Assembly: GCF_008086175.1 (NCBI RefSeq)
Contig: NZ_VSKM01000007.1
Coordinates: 1 to 64,000 of the forward strand
Source: Bizionia saleffrena
GTDB taxonomy: Bacteria; Bacteroidota; Bacteroidia; Flavobacteriales; Flavobacteriaceae
Length of the DNA: 64,000 nt
Reading direction: 5' to 3'
Positions 21,679 to 41,689 of the stretch are shown piece after piece. Both the position numbers and the translations under genes were made by a program. Numbering within the stretch: the first letter of the stretch is position 1; each line of letters begins with the position of its first letter. The notes below the pieces were generated by a model. The model was not told the origin of the DNA. It was given only the letters and a program-made list of their open reading frames with translations, and searched no databases.

Positions 21679-22932
21679 CTATGTCGACTTAGAATCGTTC
21701 GATTTCTCCATATCAATTAAATAGGCTAAAGACTTTACCAAACGGTCGTGTTTACTTACGAAAGGATTACTTTTATCCCAAACATACCCAGCTAAAACAG
21801 CACAAATCTGCTCTTTATTCGCTTTATTTTCTGGCTGATGAAAAAATAAGGTTTGCAAATTACCAGTATACCATTCTTTCACATACGTTGAAAATACAGA
21901 AACACCATATTTAATATAATCCGAGTATTCAGTTTCCCAATTTACCGACTCATTATTTAATTCTTTTACAATAAGTTTTGAAGCCAACAACGCCGATTCT
22001 GTAGCGAAAGTCACGCCCGAAGAAAAAACAGGATCTAAAAACTCCGCGCTATTACCAGTTAGTGCATAACCCTTACCATATAATTGCTTTACGGCTTTAG
22101 AATAATTTTTAATTTCTTTGGGTTCGAAAAGTAATGGCACATCTTCAAATCTTTCAGAATAATGTTTTGATAATTTAAGCATCTCACGAATACGCTCCGT
22201 AGTACTTCCTTTAAAGGATTCTATAAAATCGATAGGGCCCACAAATCCAATACTCGTTACGCCATTAGAAAAAGGAATCACCCAAAACCAAGACTCGGTA
22301 TTAATAATATCGAATGTAATTAAAGTGCCTTCCTTACCTTCCGGCCTATTACTATCGTTAACGTGGGTGAATATAGAGGCGTGTTTTGCTAAGCTTGATG
22401 GCTTCTCTAAATCTAATAATCGTGGCAATACACGACCATAACCACTAGAATCTATAATATACTTTGCATAAATAGAAGACTCTTCTCCATCTTTGCTTAT
22501 TACTGTTGTTTTAGAGCTTCCGTCGGTATTAAAAATGACATCAATGACTTCATTTTCGAAAGCTATATTCACCCCTTTTCGCGTCAACTCATCGGTTAAA
22601 AGTTTATCGAAATCGGCTCTCGGTAATTGCCATGTCCAATTCCAACCTTCTGTAAACTTCTCTTTGAAATCGAACTCACATACAGCGTCACCTTTAATAA
22701 ACCGCGCACCAGTTTTCACTTCAAAATCACCTTGTTTTATAACGTCTAGCAGGCCAACTTCATCAAAATGATCCATACAACGTGGAATTAAGCTTTCCCC
22801 AATTACAAATCTTGGAAACTTACTTTTTTCAATGACTTTTATAGATATCCCTTGGTTAAAAAGGTAAGCTGCCGCGACGCTACCCGAAGGTCCAGCTCCT
22901 ATTATTAAAACATCGATATTAATATCGTCCAT
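21679..22932 (-). CDS. Flavin-dependent halogenase-like oxidoreductase (pigment locus)
   Basis: 417 residues. IGAGPSGSVAAAYL (11-24) is the FAD-binding GxGxxG, FPRFVIGESLIP (39-50) is typical of the halogenase group, and WFWVIP near 207-212 resembles the WxWxIP motif of flavin-dependent halogenases. K73 in FEVKTGARF is a candidate for the catalytic lysine. It would chlorinate or otherwise oxidise the phenolic head group, as flexirubin-type pigments can be halogenated. A geranylgeranyl-reductase-type oxidoreductase is the alternative. It is the only minus-strand gene of the locus and is divergent from the ammonia-lyase with 101 bases between. Confidence 0.75.
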   Translation of the reverse strand: MDDINIDVLIIGAGPSGSVAAAYLFNQGISIKVIEKSKFPRFVIGESLIPRCMDHFDEVGLLDVIKQGDFEVKTGARFIKGDAVCEFDFKEKFTEGWNWTWQLPRADFDKLLTDELTRKGVNIAFENEVIDVIFNTDGSSKTTVISKDGEESSIYAKYIIDSSGYGRVLPRLLDLEKPSSLAKHASIFTHVNDSNRPEGKEGTLITFDIINTESWFWVIPFSNGVTSIGFVGPIDFIESFKGSTTERIREMLKLSKHYSERFEDVPLLFEPKEIKNYSKAVKQLYGKGYALTGNSAEFLDPVFSSGVTFATESALLASKLIVKELNNESVNWETEYSDYIKYGVSVFSTYVKEWYTGNLQTLFFHQPENKANKEQICAVLAGYVWDKSNPFVSKHDRLVKSLAYLIDMEKSNDSKST

Positions 22933-23033
22933 CGCTATTTAGTATAGAATAATTAATTATTATAAATTTACGTCCAAAAATAACTACTTTGCGATTGGTT
23001 ATGACATTATAATTAACATTCTTAACAAAAGAA
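22933..23033. promoter_or_regulatory. Divergent promoter region of the pigment locus
   Basis: 101 AT-rich bases between the halogenase and ammonia-lyase starts. On the minus strand TATTTTTG fits the -7 consensus for the halogenase; on the plus strand ACTACTTTGC is a near match for the lyase. Placement means both arms can be controlled together. I see no clear operator palindrome. Confidence 0.45.
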
Positions 23034-24557
23034 ATGCTCACATTAAAGGGAAACTTAACTATTGAAGACTTTAAAGCCGTTATTTTTGATTGTAAAAACA
23101 TTGAAATAGACGCATCGGTTTATACCACCGTAGAGCAAAGCTTCAACTTTCTTAAAGAGTTTTCAGAGAACAAAGTGATTTATGGCGTAAACACGGGTTT
23201 TGGGCCTATGGCTCAGTATAAAATTGCCGATTCTGATCGCATTGAACTTCAATATAATTTAATACGAAGTCACGCTTCGGGAACTGGAAATATCATTCCT
23301 GAAGCCTATGTAAAAGCAAGTATGCTAGCGCGTTTAAAAACGTTATCGCTAGGGTATTCTGGCGTTCATAGATCGGCTATAGAATTAATGTCTAGTTTAA
23401 TAAATAAAGACATCACGCCTCTTATTTTCGAACACGGCGGCGTTGGTGCTAGTGGGGATTTAGTGCAATTGGCACATTTAGCATTAGTTTTAATTGGGGA
23501 AGGAGAAGTGTTTTATAAAGGGATACGACAAGACACTGCAACCGTTTTTAAAGCTGAAGGTCTAAAACCAATGCAAATAGAATTGCGAGAAGGTTTAGCT
23601 TTAATGAATGGCACCTCGGTAATGACGGGCATCGGGATGCTAAATACAATTAATACTAAAACACTTTTACAATGGATGGTAGTCTGCTCATCGGCAATAA
23701 ATGAAATTGTTGAAGCTTACGATGATCATTTATCATTAGAATTAAACCAATCTAAAAGACATAAAGGACAGCGCGCTATTGCAGAAATGATGCGTTCTCA
23801 TTTATCCGACAGCAAATTAACACGTAAAAGAGAACATCATTTATATAAAGAACACCACACCGAAGACGATGTGTTTACCGATAAGGTTCAAGAATATTAT
23901 TCGTTACGCTGCGTACCGCAAATTTTGGGACCTGTTTTAGACACTCTGAATACTGTAGAATCGGTATTAACGCAAGAGGTGAATTCGGCTAACGACAACC
24001 CCATTACAGACGTAAAAAGTAGAAGTGTATATCACGGCGGCAATTTCCACGGTGATTATGTCGCTTTAGAAATGGATAAGCTTAAAATTGTCGTGACAAA
24101 AATGAGTATGCTCGCAGAACGCCAATTAAACTACCTATTAAATCCGCAGTTAAACAATAAACTTCCAGCCTTTGTAAACCTTGGAAAATTAGGTTTAAAT
24201 TTCGGAATGCAAGGTGTACAATTTACAGCAACCTCAACAACTGCAGAAAATCAGATGCTTTCGAACCCTATGTACGTGCACAGTATTCCTAACAATAACG
24301 ACAATCAAGATATTGTGAGTATGGGAACAAATGCCGCATTAACGACAAAAAAAGTTATAGAAAACGGTTTCGAAGTGGTCGCAATAGAGTTAATGACCAT
24401 TGTACAAGCCATAGACTATTTAAATATACAAAACGATGTGTCTTCAAAAACAAAAACGATATATAGTCAAATACGTAAATTAGTACCTGCCTTTACAAAA
24501 GACCCTATTATGTATCCCTATGTAAATGCGGTCAAAAAATTTATAATGAAACCCTAA
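23034..24557 (+). CDS. Aromatic amino acid ammonia-lyase (HAL/PAL/TAL family)
   Basis: 507 residues. GGVGASGDLVQLAH holds A139-S140-G141, which cyclises to the MIO cofactor; Y50 in IYGVNTGFGP is the catalytic tyrosine loop. The substrate-selectivity pair is S79-H80 (IRSHASGTG). In a pigment locus the expected role is deamination of tyrosine to 4-coumarate, the aryl starter of the polyene. Histidine ammonia-lyase activity cannot be ruled out by the SH pair alone, but no hut genes are near, and the protein opens a long biosynthetic operon. Length is normal. Confidence 0.88.
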   Translation: MLTLKGNLTIEDFKAVIFDCKNIEIDASVYTTVEQSFNFLKEFSENKVIYGVNTGFGPMAQYKIADSDRIELQYNLIRSHASGTGNIIPEAYVKASMLARLKTLSLGYSGVHRSAIELMSSLINKDITPLIFEHGGVGASGDLVQLAHLALVLIGEGEVFYKGIRQDTATVFKAEGLKPMQIELREGLALMNGTSVMTGIGMLNTINTKTLLQWMVVCSSAINEIVEAYDDHLSLELNQSKRHKGQRAIAEMMRSHLSDSKLTRKREHHLYKEHHTEDDVFTDKVQEYYSLRCVPQILGPVLDTLNTVESVLTQEVNSANDNPITDVKSRSVYHGGNFHGDYVALEMDKLKIVVTKMSMLAERQLNYLLNPQLNNKLPAFVNLGKLGLNFGMQGVQFTATSTTAENQMLSNPMYVHSIPNNNDNQDIVSMGTNAALTTKKVIENGFEVVAIELMTIVQAIDYLNIQNDVSSKTKTIYSQIRKLVPAFTKDPIMYPYVNAVKKFIMKP

Positions 24558-24572
24558 GATTACTTTAAAAAA

Positions 24573-25301
24573 ATGAAATACGCTTTAGTAACAGGAGGAT
24601 CCCGTGGTATAGGTAAAGCCATTTGCTTACAGTTGGCAAAAGATACAGAGTACCATATTTTAATAAATTACAAAACAAATAAAGAGGCCGCTTTAGAGAC
24701 TTTAAATGCTATTGAAGCCTTAGGAGGAAAAGCGACTCTTTTACCATTTGATGTTACGAACTACGCTGCTGTAAAAACGGCATTAAACGAATGGAAAATC
24801 GTCAACGAAAACTCAGTTATTGAGGTGTTAGTCAACAACGCAGGTATTACAAAAGACAATTTATTTTTGTGGTTATCGCCTAACGATTGGTCTCAAGTCA
24901 TAAACACCTCGGTTAACGGCTTCTACAACGTTACACACAATCTTATACAAGAGATGCTTCTTAATAAATTTGGACGTATTATTAATATGGTTTCCGTTTC
25001 TGGTTTAAAAGGCACACCGGGACAAACAAATTATTCAGCCGCGAAAGGGGCAATAATTGCTGCTACCAAAGCTTTGGCGCAAGAGGTTGCAAAGAAAAAA
25101 ATAACAGTAAATGCAGTCGCACCGGGTTTTATTAGAACAGATATGACGAGCGCTTTAGACGAAAAAGAACTTAAAAAAAGTATTCCAGCGCATCGTTTTG
25201 GTGCTCCAGAGGAAGTTGCACATTTGGTTTCATTTTTAGCTTCCGAAAAAGCATCCTATATTACCGGCGAAACCATAAGCATTAACGGCGGTATTTACTA
25301 A
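24573..25301 (+). CDS. 3-oxoacyl-ACP reductase (FabG/ApeQ-like)
   Basis: 242-residue short-chain dehydrogenase. TGGSRGIG (7-14) binds NADPH, NNAG is at 88-91, and the catalytic set S141, Y154, K158 is complete. In this operon it would reduce the beta-keto group after each condensation of the polyene chain. It sits 15 bases behind the lyase gene. Primary fatty acid synthesis is possible but the context argues for pigment synthesis. Confidence 0.88.
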   Translation: MKYALVTGGSRGIGKAICLQLAKDTEYHILINYKTNKEAALETLNAIEALGGKATLLPFDVTNYAAVKTALNEWKIVNENSVIEVLVNNAGITKDNLFLWLSPNDWSQVINTSVNGFYNVTHNLIQEMLLNKFGRIINMVSVSGLKGTPGQTNYSAAKGAIIAATKALAQEVAKKKITVNAVAPGFIRTDMTSALDEKELKKSIPAHRFGAPEEVAHLVSFLASEKASYITGETISINGGIY

Positions 25302-25325
25302 AATAAGATTTTTAATTTTTAAATA

Positions 25326-26207
25326 ATGGCAACAAAATGGGATGGTAAATCAAGAGGAACCGTTTTGGGTTTTAAAGTATTTATCTTTTTTATAAAAAAC
25401 TTTGGTATTAATGCTGCTTATGTATTAATGCATTTACCGGTACCTTATTTTTGCTTATTTTCCAGAAAGAATGTTCGCGGTTTACAGTATTACTTCAATA
25501 AAAGATTACAGTATTCTTGGCTTAAAAGCTCGCTAAGTATTTACAAAACGTATTTTGTTTTCGGACAAACCTTAATAGATAAAGTAGCTATTTCTGCGGG
25601 ACTACGAGAAAATTATACTTACGAGTTTGATGGCGAACATCGTATTGAAGAGGTTTTAGCGCAAAAAAAAGGAGGTATTCTTATTAGTGCGCATATTGGT
25701 AATTTCGAATTGGCGCAGTTTTTTTTTAGAGAGCGTTTAGCAGATCAATCCATAAGCATTGTTATTACCGATCAAGACCATCAGGAAATAAAAGATTATC
25801 TCGATCAATTCCTGAAAAAAAATGAGATAAAATTCATTATTGTAAAAGAAGATATGTCGCATGTTTTCGAAATTAATGCGGCTTTAGCTCAAAATAGAAT
25901 TATTTGTATTTCAGGCGATCGTTATTTGCAAAACAACAAATATATGGAAGAGGAATTGCTTGGTAAAACAGCAAAATTCCCTATGGGCCCTTTTCATTTA
26001 GCGAGTCGTTTAAAAGTGCCTGTTTTATTTGTTTACGTTTTACGAGAACCTAAAAAGCATTACCATTTATATGCCAGCCATGTCGACGTTAAAGCACAAG
26101 ACGCTAAAGATTTACTTAAAAAATACACGACTAATTTAGAAAAGGTTATTAAGAAATATCCGTTGCAATGGTTTAACTTTTACGATTTCTGGGATGACGT
26201 TAAATAA
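25326..26207 (+). CDS. LpxL/HtrB-like lysophospholipid acyltransferase
   Basis: 293 residues with a hydrophobic N-terminal stretch (about 14-45) and the acyltransferase motif HIGNFE (H123 to E128), an HX4E variant of the HX4D/E motif of the LpxL family. FPMGPFHLASRLKVPVLFVYV near 218-238 is also family-like. Aryl-polyene loci commonly carry such an enzyme, thought to attach the polyene acyl group or a fatty acid to a lipid carrier at the inner membrane. True lipid A acylation is less likely in this context. Confidence 0.82.
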   Translation: MATKWDGKSRGTVLGFKVFIFFIKNFGINAAYVLMHLPVPYFCLFSRKNVRGLQYYFNKRLQYSWLKSSLSIYKTYFVFGQTLIDKVAISAGLRENYTYEFDGEHRIEEVLAQKKGGILISAHIGNFELAQFFFRERLADQSISIVITDQDHQEIKDYLDQFLKKNEIKFIIVKEDMSHVFEINAALAQNRIICISGDRYLQNNKYMEEELLGKTAKFPMGPFHLASRLKVPVLFVYVLREPKKHYHLYASHVDVKAQDAKDLLKKYTTNLEKVIKKYPLQWFNFYDFWDDVK

Positions 26208-26208
26208 G

Positions 26209-26652
26209 ATGAAAGACCACGATTTTATATTACCCATTTCGAATATAGACGTAATAAAACAACTTATTCCGCATCGTGAACCTATGATAATGGTGGATGG
26301 TTTACTGCATTTTGAAGGCCGAATGGCACGTGCAACATTAACTATTTTAAAAGAGAATATTTTTATTGAAAACAATAGATTATCTGAAACCGGCCTACTA
26401 GAACATATGGCGCAAACAGCAGCTTTGCATACCGGTTACAAGTTTAAATCTAAAAATAAAAATGTAAAAGAAGGAATGATTGCCGCTATTAAATCGGCTT
26501 CCATTTTAAATGTACCACAAGTAAATGACACCATAATAAGTGAAGTTTATATAACTTACGAGGCTGAAATGCTATCAATGGTTTCTATAACTACTACTTT
26601 ACACGATGACATTATTGCCTCGGCACAAATGAATACCGTTTTAAAAGATTAA
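26209..26652 (+). CDS. Hotdog dehydratase, ApeI/FabZ-like
   Basis: 147 residues from the ATG at 26209, which starts one base after the preceding stop; an ATG 15 bases upstream would overlap it. It reads PHREPMIMVDG near 21-31 and GLLEHMAQTAA near 63-73, the hotdog central helix with acidic residue E65. The HFP histidine segment of FabZ is missing (IFIENNRLSE instead). With the dehydratase at 33801, which has the histidine but not the glutamate, it probably forms the heterodimer that dehydrates polyene intermediates. Confidence 0.78.
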   Translation: MKDHDFILPISNIDVIKQLIPHREPMIMVDGLLHFEGRMARATLTILKENIFIENNRLSETGLLEHMAQTAALHTGYKFKSKNKNVKEGMIAAIKSASILNVPQVNDTIISEVYITYEAEMLSMVSITTTLHDDIIASAQMNTVLKD

Positions 26653-26660
26653 TTATAATA

Positions 26661-27107
26661 ATGACGTACAAAACACAAGTCCCCTCTCATTTAACACATA
26701 AACACAGTCTTCGCGTGCGTTTTAGCGAGGTTGATTCGTTACAAATTGTTTGGCACGGACATTATATAAACTATTTTGAAGATGGCAGAGAAGCATTTGG
26801 GCGTCAATTTGGCTTATCCTATTTAGAGATCAAAAAAGAAGGTTACGCCACGCCCATTGTAAACACAAATACGTCGCACAAACTACCGCTGCGTTATGGA
26901 GATATCGCATATATTGAAACGACGTATATTAATACAGCTGCCGCAAAACTGCAGTTTTCTTATTGTATTAAAAATGAAGCGAACCAAATTATTTGCACAG
27001 GAGAAACCATCCAAGTATTTACCAAATTAGATAACGGAGAAATGGCATTATTACATCCTGAGTTTTATAAACAATGGAAAACTAAACACAACCTTTTAAA
27101 TGTCTAA
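26661..27107 (+). CDS. Acyl-CoA/acyl-ACP thioesterase (4HBT family)
   Basis: 148 residues of hotdog fold. VRFSEVDSLQIVWHGHYINYFEDGREAF (20-47) carries the family pattern D...WHxxYxxxxE; the aspartate D26 is at the position of the catalytic Asp of 4-hydroxybenzoyl-CoA thioesterase. It could release aryl or polyene acyl chains or edit stalled ACP intermediates, like ApeK. It ends eight bases into the next gene. Confidence 0.8.
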   Translation: MTYKTQVPSHLTHKHSLRVRFSEVDSLQIVWHGHYINYFEDGREAFGRQFGLSYLEIKKEGYATPIVNTNTSHKLPLRYGDIAYIETTYINTAAAKLQFSYCIKNEANQIICTGETIQVFTKLDNGEMALLHPEFYKQWKTKHNLLNV

Positions 27108-28263
27108 AGTATATCTCTCACATCATAATATTGTTTCTGCTTTAGGTTTTACTGCCGAAAGGGTAGTACTAAATATAAAAAATAAAGTTTCTGGAATTTT
27201 CTTAATAGATGATCCAGCGTATTTACACATCCCGTTTTATGGTTCGGTAATTCCTCCAAACGATTTAGAAGCAGCTTTCAAACCTTTAGAAACAACAAAA
27301 AAATACACGAAACTTGAAAAAATGATGTTGCTCTCGCTGCAGCGAACAATTGAAGCTTCAAATGTTTCTTTAGATAAAAATGTCGGACTTATTATTTCTT
27401 CAACAAAAGGAAATATCGACGTGTTAAACAACTCTTCATTTCCTGAAGACCGCGCCTATTTAAGTACTTTAGGCACTGAAATTAAAGACTATTTCGGATT
27501 TAAAAACGAGGCTATTGTATTGTCTAACGCTTGTGTTTCTGGGCTTTTGGCAACCGCCATTGCAAAACGCTACATTAAAGAAGGTGTTTACAATCACGTT
27601 TTTATTGTCGGTGGTGACACGGTAAACCCTTTTGTCTTATCTGGATTCAATTCGTTTCAAGCAATGGCCGATTCGCCATGTAAACCTTACGACAAAAATA
27701 GAACAGGAGTAAATTTAGGCGAAGCAGCTGCTAGTGTTTTGGTGACCTCGCAACGAGAATATTTATGCCCTGAAGCTGTAGAAATTTTAGGTGATGGATC
27801 ATGTAACGATGCCAACCACATTTCTGGACCATCTCGTACAGGCGAAGGATTATTTAGATGTGTAAGCGCTGCCATTGCAGAAGCTAATATAGCAACTCAA
27901 GACATCGATTTTATTTCTGCTCACGGTACCGCAACTCTTTTTAATGACGAAATGGAAGCTATCGCTTTTAACCGATTAAGTTTATGTACCACTCCTATTC
28001 ACAGTTTAAAAGGTTACTTTGGGCATACTTTAGGGGCTTCAGGCCTAATAGAAACACTTGTTGGGATGCATAGTTTACATCAAAACACCTTATTTAAATC
28101 TTTGGGATACGATACACTGGGTGTTTCAAAATCTTTAAATATTATAGAAAAAACCATCTCCAACACTAATACCATATTTTTAAAAACAGCATCAGGTTTT
28201 GGAGGGTCCAATACCGCTGTTTTATTTAAAAAAGCACAGACAGAAAAATTAACAAATGACTAA
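27100..28263 (+). CDS. Beta-ketoacyl synthase (pigment locus, ApeR-like)
   Basis: 387 residues. The catalytic set is complete: C145 in SNACVSGLL, H275 in SAHGTAT, K304 and H309 in GHTLGASG. It has the FabF/KAS I fold but is divergent at the N-terminus (SHHNIVSALG). By analogy with aryl-polyene systems it may perform the first condensation on the aryl starter or a subset of extensions; this is inference. Overlaps of eight bases at both ends show tight translational coupling. Confidence 0.83.
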   Translation: MSKVYLSHHNIVSALGFTAERVVLNIKNKVSGIFLIDDPAYLHIPFYGSVIPPNDLEAAFKPLETTKKYTKLEKMMLLSLQRTIEASNVSLDKNVGLIISSTKGNIDVLNNSSFPEDRAYLSTLGTEIKDYFGFKNEAIVLSNACVSGLLATAIAKRYIKEGVYNHVFIVGGDTVNPFVLSGFNSFQAMADSPCKPYDKNRTGVNLGEAAASVLVTSQREYLCPEAVEILGDGSCNDANHISGPSRTGEGLFRCVSAAIAEANIATQDIDFISAHGTATLFNDEMEAIAFNRLSLCTTPIHSLKGYFGHTLGASGLIETLVGMHSLHQNTLFKSLGYDTLGVSKSLNIIEKTISNTNTIFLKTASGFGGSNTAVLFKKAQTEKLTND

Positions 28264-29317
28264 AAAAACAACTAGCGCAATCAATGCATTAGAGGAAGCT
28301 CATAAAATTGCTTTTGCACCCTTCGTATTTCAATCTTCGGTGTCATTAAAAAAGCTAGGCGTTTTAACACTAATTTTCGAACATCGAAAAAAAGGAGGTC
28401 TCTCGATAGAAGAAATTTCTGAGCAATTATCTATTAGCACGTATGGTCTTGGCGTTTTATTAGAAATTGCAGAAAGCGCAAACCTTGTAGAAAAAACAAA
28501 AGAGAAATACAGTCTCACAAAAACTGGATATTTTCTAAATTTTGATAAAACAGTTGCCGTTAACCTCAATTTTACAAACGATGTGTGTTACGAAGGTTTA
28601 TACCATTTAAATGAGGCTATAAAAAACGAAAAACCTGAAGGTTTAAAAGTCTTTGGGGACTGGGATACTATTTACGAGGGGCTTTCGGAATTAGAGCCCG
28701 AAACACAAAAATCGTGGTTTGAATTCGATCATCATTATTCTGATGGTATTTTTGAAGAAGCCTTGGATTACGTTTTTAGAAATAACCCGAAAACTATTTT
28801 CGATATTGGAGGTAATACAGGAAAATTTGCTTTGCATTGTTTACGCACTAATCCTTCAGTCGCGATTAAAATATTCGATTTACCAGGACAATTAAATAAA
28901 GCATTAAAGACAATTGAAGCTGCAGGTTTTAAAAATCGCGTTTCAGGACAAAGTATTAATTGGCTACTTCCTACCCCCGAAATTAAGGGTTCTCCAGATG
29001 TTATTTGGATGAGCCAATTTCTAGATTGCTTTTCAGAATCTGAGATCATTACTATTTTATCGACGTGTGTAAAAGCAATGACTGCCAAAACAGAACTTAT
29101 AATTGTTGAAACATTTACCGACAGACAAAAATTTGAAAAGGCTAAATTTGCTTTAGAAGCCACATCTCTTTACTTTACAGCCTTGGCCAACGGAACCAGT
29201 AAAATGTATCCTGCCAATGTGTTTAAAAAATTAATTGAGAAAGCAGGTTTAACCCTAACAGAAGACCATCCGCTTGGCGATTACCATACACTGCTCGTTT
29301 GTAAAAAAAGAGATTAA
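28256..29317 (+). CDS. SAM-dependent methyltransferase with winged-helix dimerisation domain
   Basis: 353 residues. The N-terminal third (LTLIFEHRKKGGLSIEEISEQL) is a winged-helix dimerisation domain as in plant-type O-methyltransferases, and FDIGGNTGKFALH (about 181-193) is the SAM-binding loop. WMSQFLDCFSESEI near 248-261 resembles the region that aligns the acceptor. It probably methylates the aryl ring or its hydroxyl; C- and O-methylation cannot be told apart here. Confidence 0.82.
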   Translation: MTKKTTSAINALEEAHKIAFAPFVFQSSVSLKKLGVLTLIFEHRKKGGLSIEEISEQLSISTYGLGVLLEIAESANLVEKTKEKYSLTKTGYFLNFDKTVAVNLNFTNDVCYEGLYHLNEAIKNEKPEGLKVFGDWDTIYEGLSELEPETQKSWFEFDHHYSDGIFEEALDYVFRNNPKTIFDIGGNTGKFALHCLRTNPSVAIKIFDLPGQLNKALKTIEAAGFKNRVSGQSINWLLPTPEIKGSPDVIWMSQFLDCFSESEIITILSTCVKAMTAKTELIIVETFTDRQKFEKAKFALEATSLYFTALANGTSKMYPANVFKKLIEKAGLTLTEDHPLGDYHTLLVCKKRD

Positions 29318-29320
29318 CCT

Positions 29321-29941: not shown

Positions 29942-30195
29942 GCAACTTAATACAAGAACTGAAAGAAAATATTATAGAGCTTCTAAATTTAGAAGAGTTT
30001 TCTGTTGAAGATATAAATGATGACGATGCCCTTTTTGGAGACGGCTTAGGACTCGATTCTATTGATGCTTTAGAATTAATGGTAATGTTAGATAAAGACT
30101 ACGGTATTAAATTAACAGACCCAAAAGAAGGAAAAGAGATTTTTCAATCTATTGCGGTTTTAGCTGATTACATTGAAAAAAACAGAGCAAAATAA
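29938..30195 (+). CDS. Acyl carrier protein (pigment locus)
   Basis: 85 residues, acidic. GLGLDSIDALELMVML carries phosphopantetheine serine S41 in a DSI motif that differs from the housekeeping DSL ACP at 6091. It should carry the growing aryl polyene. It is the only ACP in the locus. Its 3' end overlaps the next ketosynthase by 23 bases. Confidence 0.88.
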   Translation: MSNLIQELKENIIELLNLEEFSVEDINDDDALFGDGLGLDSIDALELMVMLDKDYGIKLTDPKEGKEIFQSIAVLADYIEKNRAK

Positions 30196-33792: not shown

Positions 33793-33800
33793 AAACCCCT

Positions 33801-34172
33801 ATGTTATTTTCAGATTTCTATACTATTTTAGACGCACATAAAACCAGCGCTTTTTCGTTTGGAAACTGTGTAGAATTAAATAAAAATCACAGTATTTTTA
33901 GCGGTCATTTTCCAGAAAACCCAATTACTCCTGGTGTGATAATGCTTCAAATTATTAAAAACAGTTTAGAACAAGCGCTGCAGTGTAATCTTAAATTACA
34001 AGCGCTTTCTAATCTTAAGTTTCTTCAAGTAGTAGACCCGAATAGAAATAATATCCTTCATTTTCAGATGGATATTAAAAAAGAAAATGATATCATTAAG
34101 ATAAAAAGTAGTAGTTCTTTTCCAGACCACACCTTAGTGTTAAAATGTAATGCTACATTTGTAAAATATTAA
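33801..34172 (+). CDS. Hotdog dehydratase, ApeP/FabZ-like
   Basis: 123 residues. FSGHFPENPITPGVIMLQI (33-51) keeps the catalytic histidine H36 of the FabZ GHFP motif, but the acidic residue expected about 14 residues later is Gln50. Its proposed partner at 26209 has the acid but no histidine. Together they would make one composite active site per heterodimer. Confidence 0.78.
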   Translation: MLFSDFYTILDAHKTSAFSFGNCVELNKNHSIFSGHFPENPITPGVIMLQIIKNSLEQALQCNLKLQALSNLKFLQVVDPNRNNILHFQMDIKKENDIIKIKSSSSFPDHTLVLKCNATFVKY

Positions 34173-34207
34173 ATGGCACCGTGCCCGTCGCTAGCAAGAA
34201 ATTATAA

Positions 34208-35407
34208 ATGAACTTAGATACCGTAAAATCTCATTTTAAAAGTTACAATTGTTGTGTTATTATACCCACGTATAACAACCAGAACACGCTAAAGCGCGTT
34301 TTAGATAGTGTTTTAAATTTTACAGATTCTATTATTGTTGTTAACGACGGATCGACTCAAGAAACGTCGGATATTCTTAGTAAATATCCACAGATAGACC
34401 ACATTAAAAAACCTAAAAACACAGGAAAAGGCACCGCCTTAAAAACAGGTTTTAAACACGCGGTAGACCAAGGTTTCGACTATGCGATTACTTTAGATAG
34501 TGACGGCCAACATTTCGCGAAAGATATTCCTGTTTTTATCGAGGCCTTAGCCGCTGCAGAAAATAAAAACCTGCTTTTAATTGGTGACAGGAATATGAAT
34601 GAAGCCAATGTTTTTGCGGCTAGTGCAAAAGGAAATCGCATATCGAGTTATTGGGTTCGTGCTGTTACCGGCTTGGACTTACGCGACTCGCAATCTGGTT
34701 TTAGATTGTATCCTGTTAAGGCGATGGCCGCATTTAGATATTTAAAAAGCACCAAAAAATTTGAGTTTGAAGTCGAAGCTATTGTGAAATCGCATTGGGC
34801 AGGTATTTCCATTGGCCACGTACCTATTCACGTACTTTACGACGAAAATGAACGCGTCTCGCACTTTAGACCCTTTATGGATATTGCACGTATTGTCGTG
34901 CTTATTATTTGGTTTTTGTTAGTCCGTTTATTTTATATTACTCCGAGAGACTTTTTCAGGAAATTAAAAAAAAAAGGACTGAAACGATTTCTCATTGAGG
35001 ACTTTTTACAACACGGCGATTCTCCAAAAAAGAAAGCGTTCTCCATTGCTTTAGGCGTTTTTATAGGCTTATCGCCGCTTTGGGGATTTCATACCGTCAT
35101 CGTTTTGTTTTTAGCCGTAGTTTTTAAATTAAATAAAGTGATTGCTTTTGCCTTTTCTAACATTAGTTTACCACCCTTAATTCCTTTTGTACTCTTAATT
35201 AGTCTGCAAACTGGAAATTGGATTTTAGGGAAGCGAACAGCTTATTCTCTGCAAGATTTTACAACGCAATTGGATCTTTTAGATCACTTAGAAACCTATA
35301 TTATTGGCAGTATTACATTATCGCTTTTAGCAGCGATTTCTTGTGGACTTTTAGGCTATATCGTTTTGTCTTTTTTTAATCAGAAAAAAGAAAATGTTTA
35401 TGGATAA
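34208..35407 (+). CDS. Family 2 glycosyltransferase fused to DUF2062
   Basis: 399 residues. The N-terminal GT-A domain has VIIPTYNNQNTL (17-28), VVNDGS and LDSDGQHF (DxD-type, near 96-103). From about 225 the protein has membrane helices and a DUF2062 module (LQHGDSPKKKAFSIALGVFIG near 270). It probably adds a sugar or processes a polyprenyl-type carrier at the membrane. GT2-like enzymes are standard in aryl-polyene loci. It starts 35 bases after the dehydratase, the largest internal gap of the operon. Confidence 0.83.
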   Translation: MNLDTVKSHFKSYNCCVIIPTYNNQNTLKRVLDSVLNFTDSIIVVNDGSTQETSDILSKYPQIDHIKKPKNTGKGTALKTGFKHAVDQGFDYAITLDSDGQHFAKDIPVFIEALAAAENKNLLLIGDRNMNEANVFAASAKGNRISSYWVRAVTGLDLRDSQSGFRLYPVKAMAAFRYLKSTKKFEFEVEAIVKSHWAGISIGHVPIHVLYDENERVSHFRPFMDIARIVVLIIWFLLVRLFYITPRDFFRKLKKKGLKRFLIEDFLQHGDSPKKKAFSIALGVFIGLSPLWGFHTVIVLFLAVVFKLNKVIAFAFSNISLPPLIPFVLLISLQTGNWILGKRTAYSLQDFTTQLDLLDHLETYIIGSITLSLLAAISCGLLGYIVLSFFNQKKENVYG

Positions 35408-37838
35408 TATATTCATTTCTCTATGTCATTTTTTTAATAAGAAGAAAGTCCTCTTTGCGATTATTATTGCTGTTTTCAGTTTAGTGTTGATGGCAGTGGC
35501 ATCTCAAATTACGTTTGAAGAAGACATTTCTAAACTAATTCCAGAAAACTCAGAGAACAAACAACTTCAAAAAGTATTACAAACTGCCCATTTTTCAGAT
35601 AAAATTGTGGTAATCGTAAACCGAAAAGACAACGGCACACTTAATGATTTAACACAATATGCTGAAGCATTTATAGACAGTGTAAATCTGAATTTATCTG
35701 AATACACAAAAGCTATTCAAGGACAAGTAGGCGACGATACTATTTTTGAAACTTTAAACTTTGTTTACGAGAATGCGCCTTTATTTTTAACAGATTCCGA
35801 TTATAAAATACTAGAAAACCGTCGCCAAAAAGACTCAATTTTAAAACGTACCGAAGCGAATTATAAAACCTTAATATCACCTTCGGGGCTTATTGCTAAA
35901 CAAACTATTGTTAAGGACCCCTTAGGTATCTCACTGCTAGCCGTTAAGCATTTGCAAAAACTTGGCATACATAAAGACTTCCAGCTTAAGAACGGGTTTA
36001 TAGTTAGCAAAAACGAATCGCACTTGTTACTATTTATCACTCCCCAATACGGATCGAGTGAAACCAATAAAAATGTTGCCTTTGCCAACGGACTTTATAA
36101 CATTCAAGACGAATTAAATATCAGTTTTTCAGACACTGTTTCTAGCGAATATTTTGGCGGAACCCTTATTGCTGTGGCCAATGCACAACAAATAAAAAAA
36201 GATATTCAGCTTACCATTAGTATTGCACTTACTGTCTTAATGATTTTGTTTATCGTCTTTTATAAGAAACTTAGTATTCCGCTTATTTTATTTACGCCGA
36301 CACTTTTTGGAGGGTTATTATCGGTGGCTATTCTCTTTTTAATTCGCGAGACTATTTCGGCCATTTCTTTAGGGATTGGAGCGATTTTACTTGGGGTAAC
36401 TCTCGATTATTCGTTACATATTTTAACCCACATTAGAAATAAAGAAGACACGACGGCGCTCTATAAAAGCGTTACAAAACCTATTTTAATGAGCAGTTTA
36501 ACAACAGCTCTAGCTTTTTTATGTTTGTTGTTTATAGACTCGCAAGCGCTACAAGATTTGGGGATATTTGCCGCCATTAGCGTACTAGGCGCTTCAGTAT
36601 TTGCCTTAATATTTATTCCGCAAGTATACACCGTTAAAAACAATGCTTCAGCACATCGAAAAACATTTATCGATGCAGTTGCAAGCTATCCGTTTCATCG
36701 TAATACATTTATTATTGGCGCCGTTATTTTGTTGTGCATTACAAGCCTATTCACCTATAACAACGTACAATTCAATCAAGACATTTCGAAATTGAATTAT
36801 ATGCCCCCAGCTATTAAAAACGCCGAAAACCGACTTGAAAAACTAACTAATGCCGCTTCAAAATCCTTATATATTGTAACCTATAGCGACACGCTTCAAG
36901 TGGCTTTAGAAGCTAACGATAACATTGTAAAGAGATTAACCACTTTAGAACAGCAACAACAAATTAGCAGTTTTAATTCGGTGGGGGCTTTAGTCTATTC
37001 TGAAAAAAAACAACGAGAAAAAATTAACCAATGGCAGGCGTTCTGGTCTCCGGAACACGTAGGTTTTACTAAGCAGCAATTAATAACTAGCGGCACACAA
37101 TTTGGCTTTAAACCCGAAACATTTAATGCGTTTTACCAATTATTAGAAAAATCTTTCACTCCACTAGAACTTAACGATTACAGGACATTAAACACGATTT
37201 CTATCGACGACTTTATAGCGAGTGAAAATGGTTTTAATGCCGTATCCTCTTTAGTAACTCTTGAAGACAATCAAGTAGCACGACTTAAAACATCGTTTAA
37301 AAACACACCAAACACATTGGTTATCGATCGTCAAGCGATAAATGAAACGCTACTCGGCAATTTAAAAAACGATTTTAACCAACTTATAATATATTCCTTC
37401 GCCGTTGTAGTCGTGTTGCTACTGTTGTTTTACAGAAACGTAAAACTGACCTTAGTAACGTGTATACCCATTATGCTAACATGGTGTATTACTATCGGTA
37501 TAATGGGTCTGTTTTCTATTGAATTCAATATTTTTAATATCATAATTTCAACATTTATTTTTGGTCTGGGCATAGATTATAGTATTTTTATAACGAATGG
37601 ATTACTCCAAGAGCAAAAAACTGGAATAAACACGTTACCTATGTATAAGACGTCAGTAATTCTATCGGTTATCACTACAATTTTTGGCGTTGGGGTTTTA
37701 GTTTTCGCCAAACATCCGGCATTATACTCTATTTCAATTGTTACAATAATCGGAATAACGTCGGCTTTAGTGGTGGCATTTACCATTCAACCAATATTAT
37801 TTAATGTATTCATATTAAAGAAACGAAGTCTTAATTAA
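35394..37838 (+). CDS. MMPL/RND-type exporter
   Basis: 814 residues in two halves. Each has one transmembrane helix, a large periplasmic loop, then five helices: helix near 18-38, bundle near 272-420, second bundle near 660-808. IGAILLGVTLDYSLHIL near 329-345 and FIFGLGIDYSIFIT near 719-732 carry the paired aspartates of the proton relay. It should export the pigment or its lipid-linked form from the inner membrane to LolA. It overlaps the glycosyltransferase by 14 bases. Confidence 0.88.
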   Translation: MFMDNIFISLCHFFNKKKVLFAIIIAVFSLVLMAVASQITFEEDISKLIPENSENKQLQKVLQTAHFSDKIVVIVNRKDNGTLNDLTQYAEAFIDSVNLNLSEYTKAIQGQVGDDTIFETLNFVYENAPLFLTDSDYKILENRRQKDSILKRTEANYKTLISPSGLIAKQTIVKDPLGISLLAVKHLQKLGIHKDFQLKNGFIVSKNESHLLLFITPQYGSSETNKNVAFANGLYNIQDELNISFSDTVSSEYFGGTLIAVANAQQIKKDIQLTISIALTVLMILFIVFYKKLSIPLILFTPTLFGGLLSVAILFLIRETISAISLGIGAILLGVTLDYSLHILTHIRNKEDTTALYKSVTKPILMSSLTTALAFLCLLFIDSQALQDLGIFAAISVLGASVFALIFIPQVYTVKNNASAHRKTFIDAVASYPFHRNTFIIGAVILLCITSLFTYNNVQFNQDISKLNYMPPAIKNAENRLEKLTNAASKSLYIVTYSDTLQVALEANDNIVKRLTTLEQQQQISSFNSVGALVYSEKKQREKINQWQAFWSPEHVGFTKQQLITSGTQFGFKPETFNAFYQLLEKSFTPLELNDYRTLNTISIDDFIASENGFNAVSSLVTLEDNQVARLKTSFKNTPNTLVIDRQAINETLLGNLKNDFNQLIIYSFAVVVVLLLLFYRNVKLTLVTCIPIMLTWCITIGIMGLFSIEFNIFNIIISTFIFGLGIDYSIFITNGLLQEQKTGINTLPMYKTSVILSVITTIFGVGVLVFAKHPALYSISIVTIIGITSALVVAFTIQPILFNVFILKKRSLN

Positions 37839-37843
37839 AACCA

Positions 37844-38728
37844 ATGGGAACACTAAAAACCAAACCTATTACTAGAGTTAAGTCCTTGACAAAAGAAGAA
37901 TTTATAACAGAGTATTATAAAAAACAACGTCCTGTTTTAATTGAGGACTTATCTAAAGATTGGCCGGCATACACTAAGTGGAACCTCGATTACATCCAGA
38001 GTTTGGCCGGTGACCAAATTGTACCATTGTATAATAACGAACCTACAAAAGGGAGACAAAACTCGGTGGCGCCCGCTAAAAAAATGAAGCTGTACGATTA
38101 TATCGATATTTTAAAAACGCAGCCTACCGATTTGCGTATGTTCTTTTACAATGTGCTTCAAAAAATGCCAGAACTCCTTAAAGATTTCAGCTATCCCGAC
38201 ATCGGATTAAAATTCTTTAAAAAATTACCAGTTATGTTTTTTGGTGGGAAGGGATCGAAAGTTCTAGCACATTACGATATGGATTTGGCAGATTTGGTTC
38301 ATTTTCATTTTCACGGCACAAAAAAAGTGACGCTTTTTGCTCCCGATCAAGCCAAGAATTTATACAAAGTTCCGTTTACGGTTCATAATTTGGAGACGAT
38401 AGATATGGACAATCCAAATTTTGAAAAATATCCTGCTTTACAATTAGCGGAAGGCATTTCGGTTACAATGAAACATGGTGATGCCCTTTATATGCCAAGT
38501 GGCTATTGGCATTACATTACTTATGACAATGGCGGATTCTCTATAACACTACGCGCGTTTCCAAGACAATTTAAACAGTTTACAGAACTTGTAATTAATA
38601 TCGTTTTTATGCGAACTTTCGAAAACGTGATGCGTAGAACCGTTGGGCAATCGTGGGTAGATTATAAAGAAGAAAAAATGGTGAAACGTGTTAATAAAAA
38701 GTATAACAAAACCTATAATCATGGGTAA
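37844..38728 (+). CDS. JmjC/FIH-like cupin (putative Fe(II)/2-oxoglutarate dioxygenase)
   Basis: 294 residues. The cupin core carries HYDMD with H143 and D145 and GYWHYIT with H223, a full 2-His-1-carboxylate iron site, plus K161 for the 2-oxoglutarate carboxylate and the FxFHGTKKVTLFAP strand. PVLIEDLSKDWPA near 30-42 is the usual N-terminal motif. It could hydroxylate the pigment or a protein. No signal peptide is visible, so it acts in the cytoplasm. It overlaps the following lipoprotein gene by eight bases. Confidence 0.82.
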   Translation: MGTLKTKPITRVKSLTKEEFITEYYKKQRPVLIEDLSKDWPAYTKWNLDYIQSLAGDQIVPLYNNEPTKGRQNSVAPAKKMKLYDYIDILKTQPTDLRMFFYNVLQKMPELLKDFSYPDIGLKFFKKLPVMFFGGKGSKVLAHYDMDLADLVHFHFHGTKKVTLFAPDQAKNLYKVPFTVHNLETIDMDNPNFEKYPALQLAEGISVTMKHGDALYMPSGYWHYITYDNGGFSITLRAFPRQFKQFTELVINIVFMRTFENVMRRTVGQSWVDYKEEKMVKRVNKKYNKTYNHG

Positions 38729-40403
38729 GCTACAATCGTTTTATAGTCTATGTTTAATCTCTATTTCACTATGTGTTTTAAGCTCTTGTGGCATTAATAA
38801 ATCGGTTAATAACCGACCAGAAATTATTAAATATAAAACCGTAATACCAGAAAAACAAATCATAAATGATTCTACTTTTTTTGCAGGAAATAATTTCTTA
38901 ATAAAAAACAAACAAGGCCTTTGGGAATTATATATCGAAGGAAATCCGTTGGAAATAGGCTTAATCACAGGGCTTTTATCAGATAGCTTAATGTATAAAC
39001 AAGAAGCCATTTTTTTTAATAAAATAAGAGAATTAGTACCTTCTGAAGGTAAACAGAAGTTTTTACGTAAGTTTTTATCGTGGTACAATCGTAAAATGTA
39101 CAAACATGTTCTTGAAGAGTTTAAAACCGAGATTTATGGACTTTCAAATTATGCCTCTCCCGAATTTAATGGGATCGCACCGCCTTATTTAAGAACACTC
39201 TATTTACAAGGCGCACACGATATAGGCCACGCTTTACAAGATTTAGCTCTGGTTGGTTGCACCTCGTTTGCAGCTTGGGGAGAAAAAACAGAGGACAAAA
39301 AGCTACTTATTGGACGTAATTTCGATTTTTATGCTGGTGATGATTTTGCTGAAAATAAAATAATTGCCTTTATAAACCCAACTGCTGGTCACCCATTTGT
39401 ATCGGTAACCTGGGGCGGAATGATAGGAGTGGTTTCCGGAATGAATACACAAGGTTTAACTGTAACTATTAACGCTGGAAAATCTAAAATTCCTTTGGTG
39501 GCCAAAACACCAATTTCTATAGTTACACGAGAAATTTTGCAATATGCTTCGACTATAGACGAAGCGATTGCAATTGCAAAATCGCGAGAAGTTTTCGTTT
39601 CAGAGTCTATAATGGTGGGAAGTGCCAAAGATAAACGCGCAGTCATAATTGAAGTCTCACCTAAAAAATTTGGTGTTTACGACGTTCAAAATAACAATCA
39701 ATTGGTATGCTCTAATCATTTTCAAAGCAATACGTATGTTTCAGATAAACGGAATTTAAAAGCTATAGAAGAAAGCCATTCTGCTTACAGATTTAATAGA
39801 ATGGAGACCCTTTTAAATCAAAATACGACTCTTAATCCAACTCGAGGTGTTTCGATTTTAAGAAACAAAAAGGGACACAATGACCATGCCATCGGGTATG
39901 GCAATGAAAAAGCTTTGAATCAGTTATTGGCGCATCACGGTATCGTGTTTCAGCCTGAAGATTTAAAGGTTTGGATTTCTTCAAACCCGTATCAGTTGGG
40001 AGAATTTGTTGCTTACGATTTAAATACAGTGTTTAATAACCGCGATCAAAATCCTTCGGCGCAATCACTTCAAAACACATCTTTAAATATTGCTAAAGAT
40101 CCTTTTTTAGACACCAAAGCCTATGCTAATTATGAAGCGTATAGAATTCTAGAACGTCAAATCGAGCACGCTATCAATAACAATGTATCTCTCGACAACG
40201 CTGTATTAAATAAGGCCATCGTATTAAACCCAAACTATTGGAAAGCATACGCTTTGGCGGGCAATTATTACTACAAACACAAAGAGTATAGTGCTGCAGC
40301 AGAAGCTTACGAAAGCGCTCTAACTAAAGAAATACCAACGCTTTTAGATACTGAACATATTACAAAATATTTAAAAAAAGCCACTCGAAAATCGAACAAA
40401 TGA
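38721..40403 (+). CDS. C45-family Ntn hydrolase/acyltransferase lipoprotein with TPR
   Basis: 560 residues from the ATG at 38721; an in-frame start 33 bases upstream would break the lipoprotein signal. LCVLSSCG gives a lipobox with C23, so the protein is exported and lipidated. ALVGCTSFAAWG supplies the self-processed nucleophile C181, and LIGRNFDFY near 197-205 is the C45 (acyl-CoA:6-APA acyltransferase-like) motif. A TPR-like repeat (NYWKAYALAGNYYYKHKEY) is near 507-525. It could transfer the polyene acyl group onto a surface lipid or sugar. Exact role unknown. Confidence 0.8.
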   Translation: MGKLQSFYSLCLISISLCVLSSCGINKSVNNRPEIIKYKTVIPEKQIINDSTFFAGNNFLIKNKQGLWELYIEGNPLEIGLITGLLSDSLMYKQEAIFFNKIRELVPSEGKQKFLRKFLSWYNRKMYKHVLEEFKTEIYGLSNYASPEFNGIAPPYLRTLYLQGAHDIGHALQDLALVGCTSFAAWGEKTEDKKLLIGRNFDFYAGDDFAENKIIAFINPTAGHPFVSVTWGGMIGVVSGMNTQGLTVTINAGKSKIPLVAKTPISIVTREILQYASTIDEAIAIAKSREVFVSESIMVGSAKDKRAVIIEVSPKKFGVYDVQNNNQLVCSNHFQSNTYVSDKRNLKAIEESHSAYRFNRMETLLNQNTTLNPTRGVSILRNKKGHNDHAIGYGNEKALNQLLAHHGIVFQPEDLKVWISSNPYQLGEFVAYDLNTVFNNRDQNPSAQSLQNTSLNIAKDPFLDTKAYANYEAYRILERQIEHAINNNVSLDNAVLNKAIVLNPNYWKAYALAGNYYYKHKEYSAAAEAYESALTKEIPTLLDTEHITKYLKKATRKSNK

Positions 40404-41689
40404 TCCCCAAATTAGAAATAGCATCGTTAAGTGAAATCAAATCTCTTCAAGAAAAAAAACTAAGAGAATTAATGGTGTATTTAAACGAAAAATCTCCGTA
40501 TTACCAAAACCTATTTAGAGCGAAAAATATTGCGATAGATAGCATACAGACACTGGAAGATTTAGCCACTTTACCGTTAACGACAAAAGAAGATTTACAA
40601 CAGCATAACGACGATTTTTTGTGTGTTCCAAAACACGCTATTATCGATTATGTCACAACTTCAGGTACACTTGGTGATCCTGTAACGTTTGCATTAACAG
40701 ATAACGATTTGGAGCGTTTAGCCTATAACGAAGCTATTTCTTTTGCATGTGCAGGTGTAAAAAAAGAAGATGTTTTACAACTTACCACCACTATAGATCG
40801 CCGTTTTATGGCAGGTTTAGCTTACTTTCTAGGTGCTCGTAAATTAGGAGCAGGAATTATTCGTGTAGGCGCCGGAAGCCTAGAATTGCAATGGGACTCC
40901 ATTATAAAATTTAAACCGACCTATTTAATAGCTGTACCCTCGTTTTTATTAAAACTGATTGAATATGCCAATGTAAACGGAATTGATTTAAAAAAATCCG
41001 GCGTTAAAGGTGCTATTTGCATTGGCGAACCGCTGCGCAACCAAGACTTTTCAGAAAATGTTTTATCAGAAAAAATTAAGGCAAGTTGGGCTATTGACCT
41101 ATTTTCAACCTACGCTTCAACCGAAATGAGCACGGCGTTTTCAGAATGTGAAATGCAAAATGGTGGTCATCATCATCCAGAACTTATTATCATTGAAATC
41201 TTAGATCATAATAACACCCCTGTAACAGAAGGAGAAGTTGGTGAATTAACCATTACCTCACTCGGTATTGAAGCAATGCCATTGTTACGTTTTAAAACAG
41301 GAGATATGGTTATTGCTCACACAGAACCGTGTAGTTGTGGCAGAAACACAATGCGTTTAGGTCCTGTTGTAGGCCGTAAAAAACAAATGATTAAATACAA
41401 AGGCACTACTTTATATCCACCAGCACTACAAAATGTTTTAAATGAATTTAGCGCCGTTGAGAATTTTGTAATTGAATTGTATCACAATAGTATTGGTACT
41501 GACGAAATTTCTATAAAAATAGGAACCAACACCCCAACTGAAGCGTTATTACAAAACATTAAAGATCACTTTAGAGCCAAATTAAGAGTCTTACCAAGTA
41601 TTGAATATCTGGATATTGAAGATATCCGTGCCCTTCAGTTTCCGAAACTTAGCCGGAAACCCGTTATAATTATTGATAAAAGGCCGTGA
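40400..41689 (+). CDS. AMP-forming aryl-CoA/ACP ligase (phenylacetate-CoA ligase-like)
   Basis: 429 residues. VTTSGTLGDPVTF (85-97) is the AMP-binding loop, YASTEMSTAFSE near 238-249 is the adenylate motif, and LLRFKTGDM near 295-303 is the core hinge region. The C-terminal subdomain contains GRKKQMIKYKG near 327-337. It would activate 4-coumarate or a hydroxybenzoate for loading onto CoA or the ACP, the ApeH-like role. It overlaps the C45 gene by four bases (ATGA) and is the last gene of the locus. Confidence 0.83.
   Translation: MIPKLEIASLSEIKSLQEKKLRELMVYLNEKSPYYQNLFRAKNIAIDSIQTLEDLATLPLTTKEDLQQHNDDFLCVPKHAIIDYVTTSGTLGDPVTFALTDNDLERLAYNEAISFACAGVKKEDVLQLTTTIDRRFMAGLAYFLGARKLGAGIIRVGAGSLELQWDSIIKFKPTYLIAVPSFLLKLIEYANVNGIDLKKSGVKGAICIGEPLRNQDFSENVLSEKIKASWAIDLFSTYASTEMSTAFSECEMQNGGHHHPELIIIEILDHNNTPVTEGEVGELTITSLGIEAMPLLRFKTGDMVIAHTEPCSCGRNTMRLGPVVGRKKQMIKYKGTTLYPPALQNVLNEFSAVENFVIELYHNSIGTDEISIKIGTNTPTEALLQNIKDHFRAKLRVLPSIEYLDIEDIRALQFPKLSRKPVIIIDKRP

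Follow-up and report, generated by a model that had tools for sequence, protein, structure and literature searches.

Gene content of the locus

The 64,000-nucleotide stretch of Bizionia saleffrena DNA analysed here (the window) contains, at 21679-41689, a gene locus of the aryl-polyene (APE) and flexirubin type, which is described below together with its relatives in other Flavobacteriaceae. Nineteen genes on the + strand (23034-41689), separated by small gaps or overlaps, form one continuous locus, preceded by a divergent halogenase-like gene. The genome (G000) has 3.28 Mb in 67 contigs and is 99.5% complete. Most of the 20 genes were named by using Pfam and NCBIfam models, and family hidden Markov models (HMMs) were searched against the 18 Ape proteins of Escherichia coli CFT073 (ApeA-R). 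The results are reported in Table 1.

Table 1. Genes of the locus, with window coordinates. E values next to an Ape name come from family HMMs. KS, ketosynthase; DH, dehydratase; ACP, acyl carrier protein; aa, amino acids.
Product	Position	Strand	Basis
Flavin-dependent halogenase-like oxidoreductase	21679..22932	-	Pfam Trp_halogenase; PDB 3nix, E 3e-135, next halogenases including PltA
FlxA, tyrosine ammonia-lyase (Tyr to 4-coumarate)	23034..24557	+	NF053541, 871.5 bits (cut-off 700); Ala-Ser-Gly motif
FlxB, ketoreductase, ApeQ-like	24573..25301	+	NF053542, 404.1 bits (cut-off 340); ApeQ 3e-77
LpxL/HtrB-like acyltransferase (acyltransferase half of ApeJ)	25326..26207	+	PF03279; ApeJ 9e-32
DH1, FabZ-like dehydratase subunit, ApeP-like	26194..26652	+	FabZ model 7e-9, far under cut-off; ApeP 1e-8
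4HBT thioesterase, ApeK-like	26661..27107	+	PF13279; ApeK 2e-28
KS1, ketosynthase with Cys-His-His, ApeO-like	27100..28263	+	PF00109/PF02801; ApeO 1e-54; motif starts 143, 274, 308
FlxJ-family methyltransferase, ApeB-like, probable ring methylation	28256..29317	+	NF053543, 433.2 bits; ApeB 4e-135
206-aa protein, ketosynthase fold	29321..29941	+	AlphaFold, Foldseek, VIA; fused to KS1 in G495
ACP, the only one of the cluster, ApeE-like	29938..30195	+	PF00550; PRK09184 over cut-off; ApeE 1e-28 vs ApeF 9e-11
KS2, elongating ketosynthase, ApeO-like	30173..31393	+	PF00109/PF02801; ApeO 3e-74; 6qsp_A 4e-55; start codon uncertain
KS3, chain-length-factor-like, without catalytic Cys, ApeC-like	31366..32412	+	PF13723; ApeC 5e-8; ApeR 1.5e-7
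NodB-type polysaccharide deacetylase	32409..33173	+	PF01522 1e-36
LolA2, periplasmic carrier	33163..33792	+	NF053544, 203.9 bits (cut-off 125); ApeL 4e-13
DH2, dehydratase subunit, ApeI-like	33801..34172	+	PF07977; ApeI 2e-11
GT2 glycosyltransferase with DUF2062 (glycosyltransferase half of ApeJ)	34208..35407	+	PF00535, PF09835; ApeJ 2e-43
MMPL/RND-like transporter, ApeM-like	35394..37838	+	PF03176; ApeM 3e-40
JmjC-like cupin, predicted Fe(II)/2-oxoglutarate oxygenase	37844..38728	+	PF13621; JMJD5 structures, E 3e-24
C45 Ntn-hydrolase lipoprotein (acyltransferase/hydrolase)	38688..40403	+	NF040521, 232 bits (cut-off 85); lipobox-like start; GCTS
FlxY, 4-coumarate-CoA ligase	40400..41689	+	NF053551, 723.6 bits (cut-off 520)

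Four curated flexirubin models (FlxA, FlxB, LolA2 and FlxY) are passed at the NCBIfam cut-offs, and 13 of the 20 genes pair with E. coli Ape proteins; the FlxY family HMM gave no match to ApeH at E 1. An earlier reading, based on the sequence only, had described a continuous aryl-polyene or flexirubin-type locus, and the Pfam, NCBIfam and curated models bear this out. The ammonia-lyase, ketoreductase, two half-dehydratases, aryl ligase, methyltransferase, LpxL-like acyltransferase, GT2, LolA and MMPL proteins listed in it were all recovered by Pfam and NCBIfam models; the list was right in substance, but left the 4HBT thioesterase and the halogenase-like gene unnamed. Its "ketosynthase pair" corresponds to KS1 and KS2, the two proteins in which the catalytic Cys-His-His is present, but KS3 and the 206-aa protein had been overlooked. 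The single ACP was correctly counted for the cluster, and an ApeF-like ACP was not found by whole-genome search either.

The halogenase-like protein contains GxGxxG, WFWVIP (215) and a lysine, Lys-73, aligned with the lysine of the halogenases shown; WFWVIP and Lys-73 presumably have a role in halogenases. Its gene was matched at 79 of 80 FlxA loci among the matches listed, the exception being a locus of Tamlana agarivorans (L038). In that species, flexirubin genes are seemingly found in two places, with flxA/flxB, MMPL, cupin and C45 genes at L038, and others, together with darAB, at G007:C20:40001-60000; the split may reflect a rearrangement or an assembly effect, the two sources having contigs of unequal length. 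Sequence matches of DH1 and DH2 within PDB are weak and mainly to FabZ. Translation of the C45 lipoprotein may actually begin 33 bases further downstream, at an internal ATG. When the 101 bp that separate the halogenase-like gene from flxA were scanned with a regular expression for the Bacteroidota-type promoter consensus, the window gave no match, and the equivalent gaps of other loci shared no consistent motif.

FlxA loci in the Flavobacteriaceae

At least 80 named FlxA-bearing loci were fetched; six extended loci were mapped first, and further ones later. In addition, 249 genomes, evenly sampled from the Flavobacteriaceae, were scanned with the FlxA and DarB models. FlxA scored over the cut-off in 56 of them and DarB in 42, every one inside the FlxA-bearing 56. 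In the remaining 14 FlxA genomes, DarB is either interrupted by a contig end (G057) or missing (13 genomes).

The window's arrangement is found in eight of these 13 (G000, G113, G117, G264, G033, G098, G174 and G213), with the exception that in G174 an open reading frame (ORF) on the opposite strand lies ahead of FlxY. Two metagenome-assembled genomes found via named loci, G001 and G002, are of the same type, G002 without the thioesterase ORF. These ten genomes, eight sampled and two metagenome-assembled, are referred to as class III. G131 and G120, of a further darAB-free type, form class IV. The DarB-free genomes G059, G107 and G208, included in class II, retain a FabB-like ketosynthase, a second ACP, the P63 lipoprotein, a CrtD-like gene and an MMPL-acyltransferase fusion.

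The sequence-only reading had taken the NodB deacetylase, the C45 protein and the cupin as additions that make the gene set unusual. This does not hold. Bizionia echini and Flavobacterium sp. SLB02 both have NodB-type and C45 proteins in their full loci, along with LpxL-like, GT2, MMPL, LolA and 206-aa proteins. The cupin gene is a neighbour of the CrtD-like gene in G247 and G256, whose loci are full and contain darAB, and it occurs as well in G107 and G059, where the loci are darAB-free and of a different type. The locus is instead distinguished by absences, common to the ten genomes of class III. These three genes might still point to a different product, if their enzymes acted on a peptide or glycan partner: the cupin is present in all ten class III loci mapped, and its HxD (143-145) and a later histidine align with those of JMJD5 structures, i.e. 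the metal ligands are kept. However, as ordinary flexirubin loci have NodB and C45, and some the cupin, the presence of the three is not enough to imply a new class of product, and we regard this alternative as improbable.

Search for darA and darB

Flexirubins are esters of an aryl polyene with a dialkylresorcinol (DAR), and the genes for the latter are not always close to the rest: in Chitinophaga pinensis, dar (Cpin_6850-6851) is unlinked from flx (Cpin_1853-1877) (PMC3992019). Absence from the locus alone therefore proves little, and the search was extended to whole genomes. DarA and DarB from the full locus of B. echini were used as queries. The latter was confirmed by NF053539 (676 bits); DarA, for which a curated model is non-existent here, was identified by its position and its flavodoxin-like start.

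In the window's genome, the DarA query gave zero matches, and the DarB query retrieved only two FabH-type proteins at 25-29% identity; the best score of the curated DarB model was 39.6 bits, against a cut-off of 550. The same DarA query produced full-length matches, at 38-60% identity, in G013, G468 and G364, where they are visible on the maps, and in G285, so the search is able to see distant DarA proteins. DarA was not found in any of the ten class III genomes, and DarB did not exceed the cut-off in seven class III genomes besides G000. The absence of DarA and DarB, which the sequence-only reading had noticed for the locus, is thus extended to a 99.5% complete genome. Its suggestion that the resorcinol half might be encoded elsewhere becomes unlikely, and an ordinary flexirubin locus with unlinked darA and darB, although documented in C. 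pinensis, is very improbable in view of these results for G000 and the other class III genomes.

One protein was considered and rejected as a DarB candidate. It is a ketoacyl-ACP synthase III (KAS III) of 352 aa, encoded at G000:C66:101672 (L003) beside a gcvP-like gene (named by eye); a KAS III of similar score and length, the only two features by which counterparts were judged, is found in 20 of the 20 genomes compared, darAB-bearing or not. As a separate observation, G285 encodes a FlxA-type lyase (G285:C1:662512) with no flexirubin cluster within 60 kb around it, and its DarA lies on another contig.

Genes absent besides darA and darB

Further genes of the full loci are missing from class III. 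According to the family HMMs, the missing ketosynthase resembles ApeR (8e-103), the missing second ACP is closer to ApeF (2e-21) than to ApeE (1e-6), and the acyltransferase domain fused to the C-terminus of MMPL, whose absence from class III was assessed at the locus, is ApeD-like (2e-16); the window's MMPL protein, devoid of it, has 814 aa, vs about 1226 aa in full loci. P63 was named LolB2 from its position beside LolA2, as in Flavobacterium johnsoniae (PMC11885536); its family HMM did not match ApeN.

In order to look for these genes outside the locus, Bizionia proteins were searched against the whole genomes of the ten class III members, the two class IV members and six controls that have the genes. 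In all twelve class III and IV genomes, the ApeR-like ketosynthase found only ordinary FabF-type proteins at 30-37% identity (67-81% in controls), the ApeF-like ACP only matches at 26-35% (56-85% in controls), and the best score of the CrtD-like protein was 32 bits or less, compared with 371-817 bits in controls. LolB2 was found in none of the twelve, G000 included, and in six of six controls, one of which is the query's own genome. Loss of the ApeF-like protein explains the single ACP of the window cluster.

In E. coli, deletion of apeF leaves pigmentation partly intact, an apeR mutant still makes APE-lipid, and deletion of apeD results in partial pigmentation and late intermediates (PMC8253772). 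As the loss of these three genes is partly tolerated there, class III appears to have dropped the counterparts of partly dispensable genes.

Phylogeny and direction of change

A tree was built with IQ-TREE (LG+G4) from 16 concatenated cluster proteins of 28 of the mapped loci, after repeated loci had been dropped (G127 and L009 are the same locus as G008, and L012 is the same as G003). The analysis was repeated on 26 loci, leaving out L054 (Tenacibaculum) and G007, each of which fills less than half of the columns. Class III forms a single clade (bootstrap 100, SH-aLRT 100). The branches that nest it among darAB-bearing loci are supported at 83/100 and 80/100 in the 28-locus tree, and both at 100/100 in the 26-locus tree; L054 has a different place in the careful 28-locus tree than in a preceding quick one. 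In the 26-locus tree, class III lies beside the class II loci G059, G003 and L034, and darAB-bearing loci flank it on either side.

Outgroup G495, like classes I and II, possesses the ApeR-like ketosynthase, second ACP, P63 and CrtD-like gene. Remains of the resorcinol genes were found as well: at G208:C6, about 315300-327300 (L125 and L126), fragments of P41, DarA, the second dehydratase and P67 occupy their full-locus positions, the DarA fragment being 49-59 residues long with one stop in frame. The resorcinol arm of G208 is decaying in place, i.e. its loss is in progress. In Tenacibaculum caenipelagi (L054), P41 is full-length, but darA is absent, both from the interval between LpxL and DH1 and from the rest of the genome (G006).

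The nested position of class III, the presence of the lost genes in G495 and in classes I and II, and the debris in G208 argue for reduction rather than ancestry. We consider it probable that the window cluster is a reduced, DAR-free descendant of a flexirubin gene cluster, with an APE-type pigment as its product. The loss would have started from a fuller locus and affected darAB and companions, and in the class III clade the ApeR-like ketosynthase, ApeF-like ACP, ApeD-like domain, LolB2 and CrtD-like gene as well.

Alternatively, the simple APE cluster could be ancestral, darAB and companions having been inserted later in other lineages. Outgroup G495 has no DarA match, class IV is darAB-free and branches early, and outgroup G364 is without the ApeR-like ketosynthase, the ApeF-like ACP and the CrtD-like gene; by parsimony, four changes of the DAR state are counted (an approximate number), gain and loss not being distinguished. 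Against it stand the darAB genes linked to the cluster of G364, the place of class III among darAB-bearing loci, the ApeR-, ApeF-, CrtD- and LolB2-like genes of G495 and classes I and II, and the darA debris of G208; this alternative is unlikely.

The preferred interpretation, reduction from a flexirubin cluster, has other points to face besides the state of the two outgroups, because of which the reconstruction of the ancestor draws, for each part, on a single outgroup together with classes I and II. The LG+G4 trees were made without a mixture model, and the absence of darAB was established on a 67-contig draft. A resorcinol made by a non-homologous route is conceivable. The methyltransferase matches NF053543 over its full length but stays under the cut-off of 560, and the match of KS3 to ApeC is weak, hardly above that to ApeR, with 6qsp_B at E 0.015. 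Deletions of apeA and apeJ are also at least partly tolerated by E. coli, which blurs the neat picture of dispensable genes, and the mutant of apeN, a LolB-like gene, is unpigmented, possibly by a polar effect (PMC8253772); the loss of LolB2 would hence need a substitute.

The 206-aa protein

The 206-aa protein, found in 30 mapped loci, a few of which were entered twice owing to the repeats named above, has no Pfam or NCBIfam match. The HMM built from this set hits the KS3 family at 1.8e-9 at best, and the window's own KS3 at 4e-5. Its AlphaFold model (pLDDT 83.4, pTM 0.82) has one low-confidence stretch, 96-118. Foldseek retrieved the chain-length factor 6kxe_B (ishigamide; 6e-5), ketosynthases and ApeC (6qsp_B; 1.5e-4), the two named structures with probability 1.00, TM scores of 0.54-0.56 by query and a root-mean-square deviation (rmsd) of 7-9. 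VIA gave Z scores of 12-14 over most of the protein, with ketosynthases and chain-length factors tied: 14.4 to 1e5m (193 residues, rmsd 4.7) and 12.7 to 6kxd_B (188 residues, rmsd 4.2). By all three tools, a thiolase-type ketosynthase fold spans the whole protein.

In G495:C1 (L145-L147), KS1 (579 aa) is fused in frame to the 206-aa protein, which corresponds to residues 400-578 (E 5e-59). On the predicted fold, and on this fusion in a single, distant genome, we propose that the protein is a short chain-length-factor-like partner of KS1, the complex of the two being inferred. Flexirubin-type loci would then have two pairs of ketosynthase and chain-length factor, against one in E. coli. FlxL, counted among the putative ketosynthases (PMC3992019), may be the same protein by gene order.

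Proposed pathway and product

Gene content, gene absence and phylogeny were computed; the chemical steps that follow, and the anchor, we infer. FlxA would convert tyrosine to 4-coumarate, to be activated by FlxY, two activities that were demonstrated biochemically for the C. pinensis proteins and are presumed for those of the window. The ApeE-type ACP, the only one in the cluster, would carry the starter, and two pairs of ketosynthase and chain-length factor would elongate it with malonyl units, one made up of KS2 and KS3, in analogy with ApeO:ApeC, the other of KS1 and the 206-aa protein, as proposed above. Reduction by FlxB and dehydration by DH1/DH2 would yield an aryl polyene, released by the thioesterase. 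The FlxJ-family enzyme would methylate the ring, and the flavin enzyme may halogenate it. Attachment of the polyene to an anchor, either a lipid or a sugar-lipid, could be carried out by the LpxL-like and GT2 proteins, which together correspond to E. coli ApeJ; transport to the outer membrane would fall to MMPL and LolA2. The cupin, NodB and C45 proteins are given no step in this scheme.

A resorcinol ester of the known kind cannot be formed without DarA and DarB, so that an APE-type pigment is expected; judging from the genes, it is most likely a tyrosine-derived aryl polyene without dialkylresorcinol. A free or lipid-linked aryl polyene, rather than a flexirubin ester, had been suggested by the sequence-only reading, and, with DarA and DarB missing from the genome, this seems the best reading. 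A more detailed scheme is offered tentatively, at slightly less than even chances: a one-ACP, ApeR-free, tyrosine-primed synthase with two pairs (KS2:KS3 and KS1:206-aa), making in this Flavobacteriaceae clade a resorcinol-free outer-membrane pigment without LolB2, possibly modified by the 2-oxoglutarate oxygenase. Protection against light and oxidants, reported for such pigments (PMC5932025, PMC8253772), is assumed for that of the window.

Significance and comparison with known systems

Flexirubin is used as a taxonomic marker, through the colour test with KOH. Calls based on FlxA, or on the cluster, would label class III organisms as flexirubin producers, yet 13 of the 56 FlxA genomes are without DarB. 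The staged loss shows which genes go with the resorcinol half and which with the polyene half, and, among the latter, which ones can be dropped in nature. Three of the genes dropped match ape genes that E. coli can lose while keeping at least part of its pigment (PMC8253772), which defines a testable minimal set for a polyene synthase.

DAR-free aryl polyene clusters in the Flavobacteriaceae are already implicit in the literature: "aryl polyene" is counted separately from "aryl polyene-resorcinol" (Table 4 of PMC7440613), and darA/darB were scored separately from the APE genes, i.e. as separable (PMC5932025). The flavobacterial APE genes of the latter study include a C45-type acyltransferase group, GT2, LolA and a lipid A acyltransferase group. 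A putative polysaccharide deacetylase is reported among flxP-flxU (PMC3992019), and a taxon-driven diversity for flexirubin clusters (PMC10734526). A description of the reduced class, of its clade, of the ApeF/ApeR/ApeD match of the losses or of the KS1-206 fusion was not found in a literature search that covered few of the subscription journals, which is weak evidence.

The closest known type is represented by the flexirubin clusters of F. johnsoniae UW101 (37 kb) and C. pinensis (flxA-flxY plus darAB; PMC3992019). Shared with them are FlxA, FlxB, FlxY, LolA2, the LpxL-like, GT2, MMPL, NodB-type and C45 proteins, the ACP, the ketosynthase set, the dehydratases and the FlxJ-type methyltransferase. 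The relative gene order is that of the full locus of B. echini, the mapped locus on which this comparison rests, rather than on the UW101 and C. pinensis clusters. Unlike flexirubin clusters, the window has no darA, darB, DarH, ABC-type transporter genes (named by eye in full loci, from the Walker motif) or second FabZ-like dehydratase, nor the ApeR-like ketosynthase, ApeF-like ACP, LolB2, CrtD-like gene and MMPL-fused acyltransferase.

With the APE clusters of Gammaproteobacteria, such as apeA-R of E. coli CFT073 and that of Xenorhabdus doucetiae, source of the ApeO:ApeC structure 6qsp, the window shares homologues of ApeB, C, E, I, J (as two proteins), K, L, M, O, P and Q. It would start from tyrosine, via FlxA/FlxY, whereas E. 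coli starts from 4-hydroxybenzoate, via ApeH. It has one ACP instead of two, no counterparts of ApeR, ApeF and ApeD, and none seen of ApeN; KS1, the 206-aa protein, NodB, C45, the cupin and the halogenase-like gene are extra.

The class II DAR-free loci, from Winogradskyella thalassocola (G003), Algibacter miyuki, T. caenipelagi, G059, G107 and G208, resemble the window in having no intact darA and a tyrosine-type start. Unlike it, they keep the ApeR-like ketosynthase and the ApeF-like ACP, and those read to the end (G003, G059, G107 and G208) also keep the LolB2-like P63, the CrtD-like gene and the MMPL-acyltransferase fusion.

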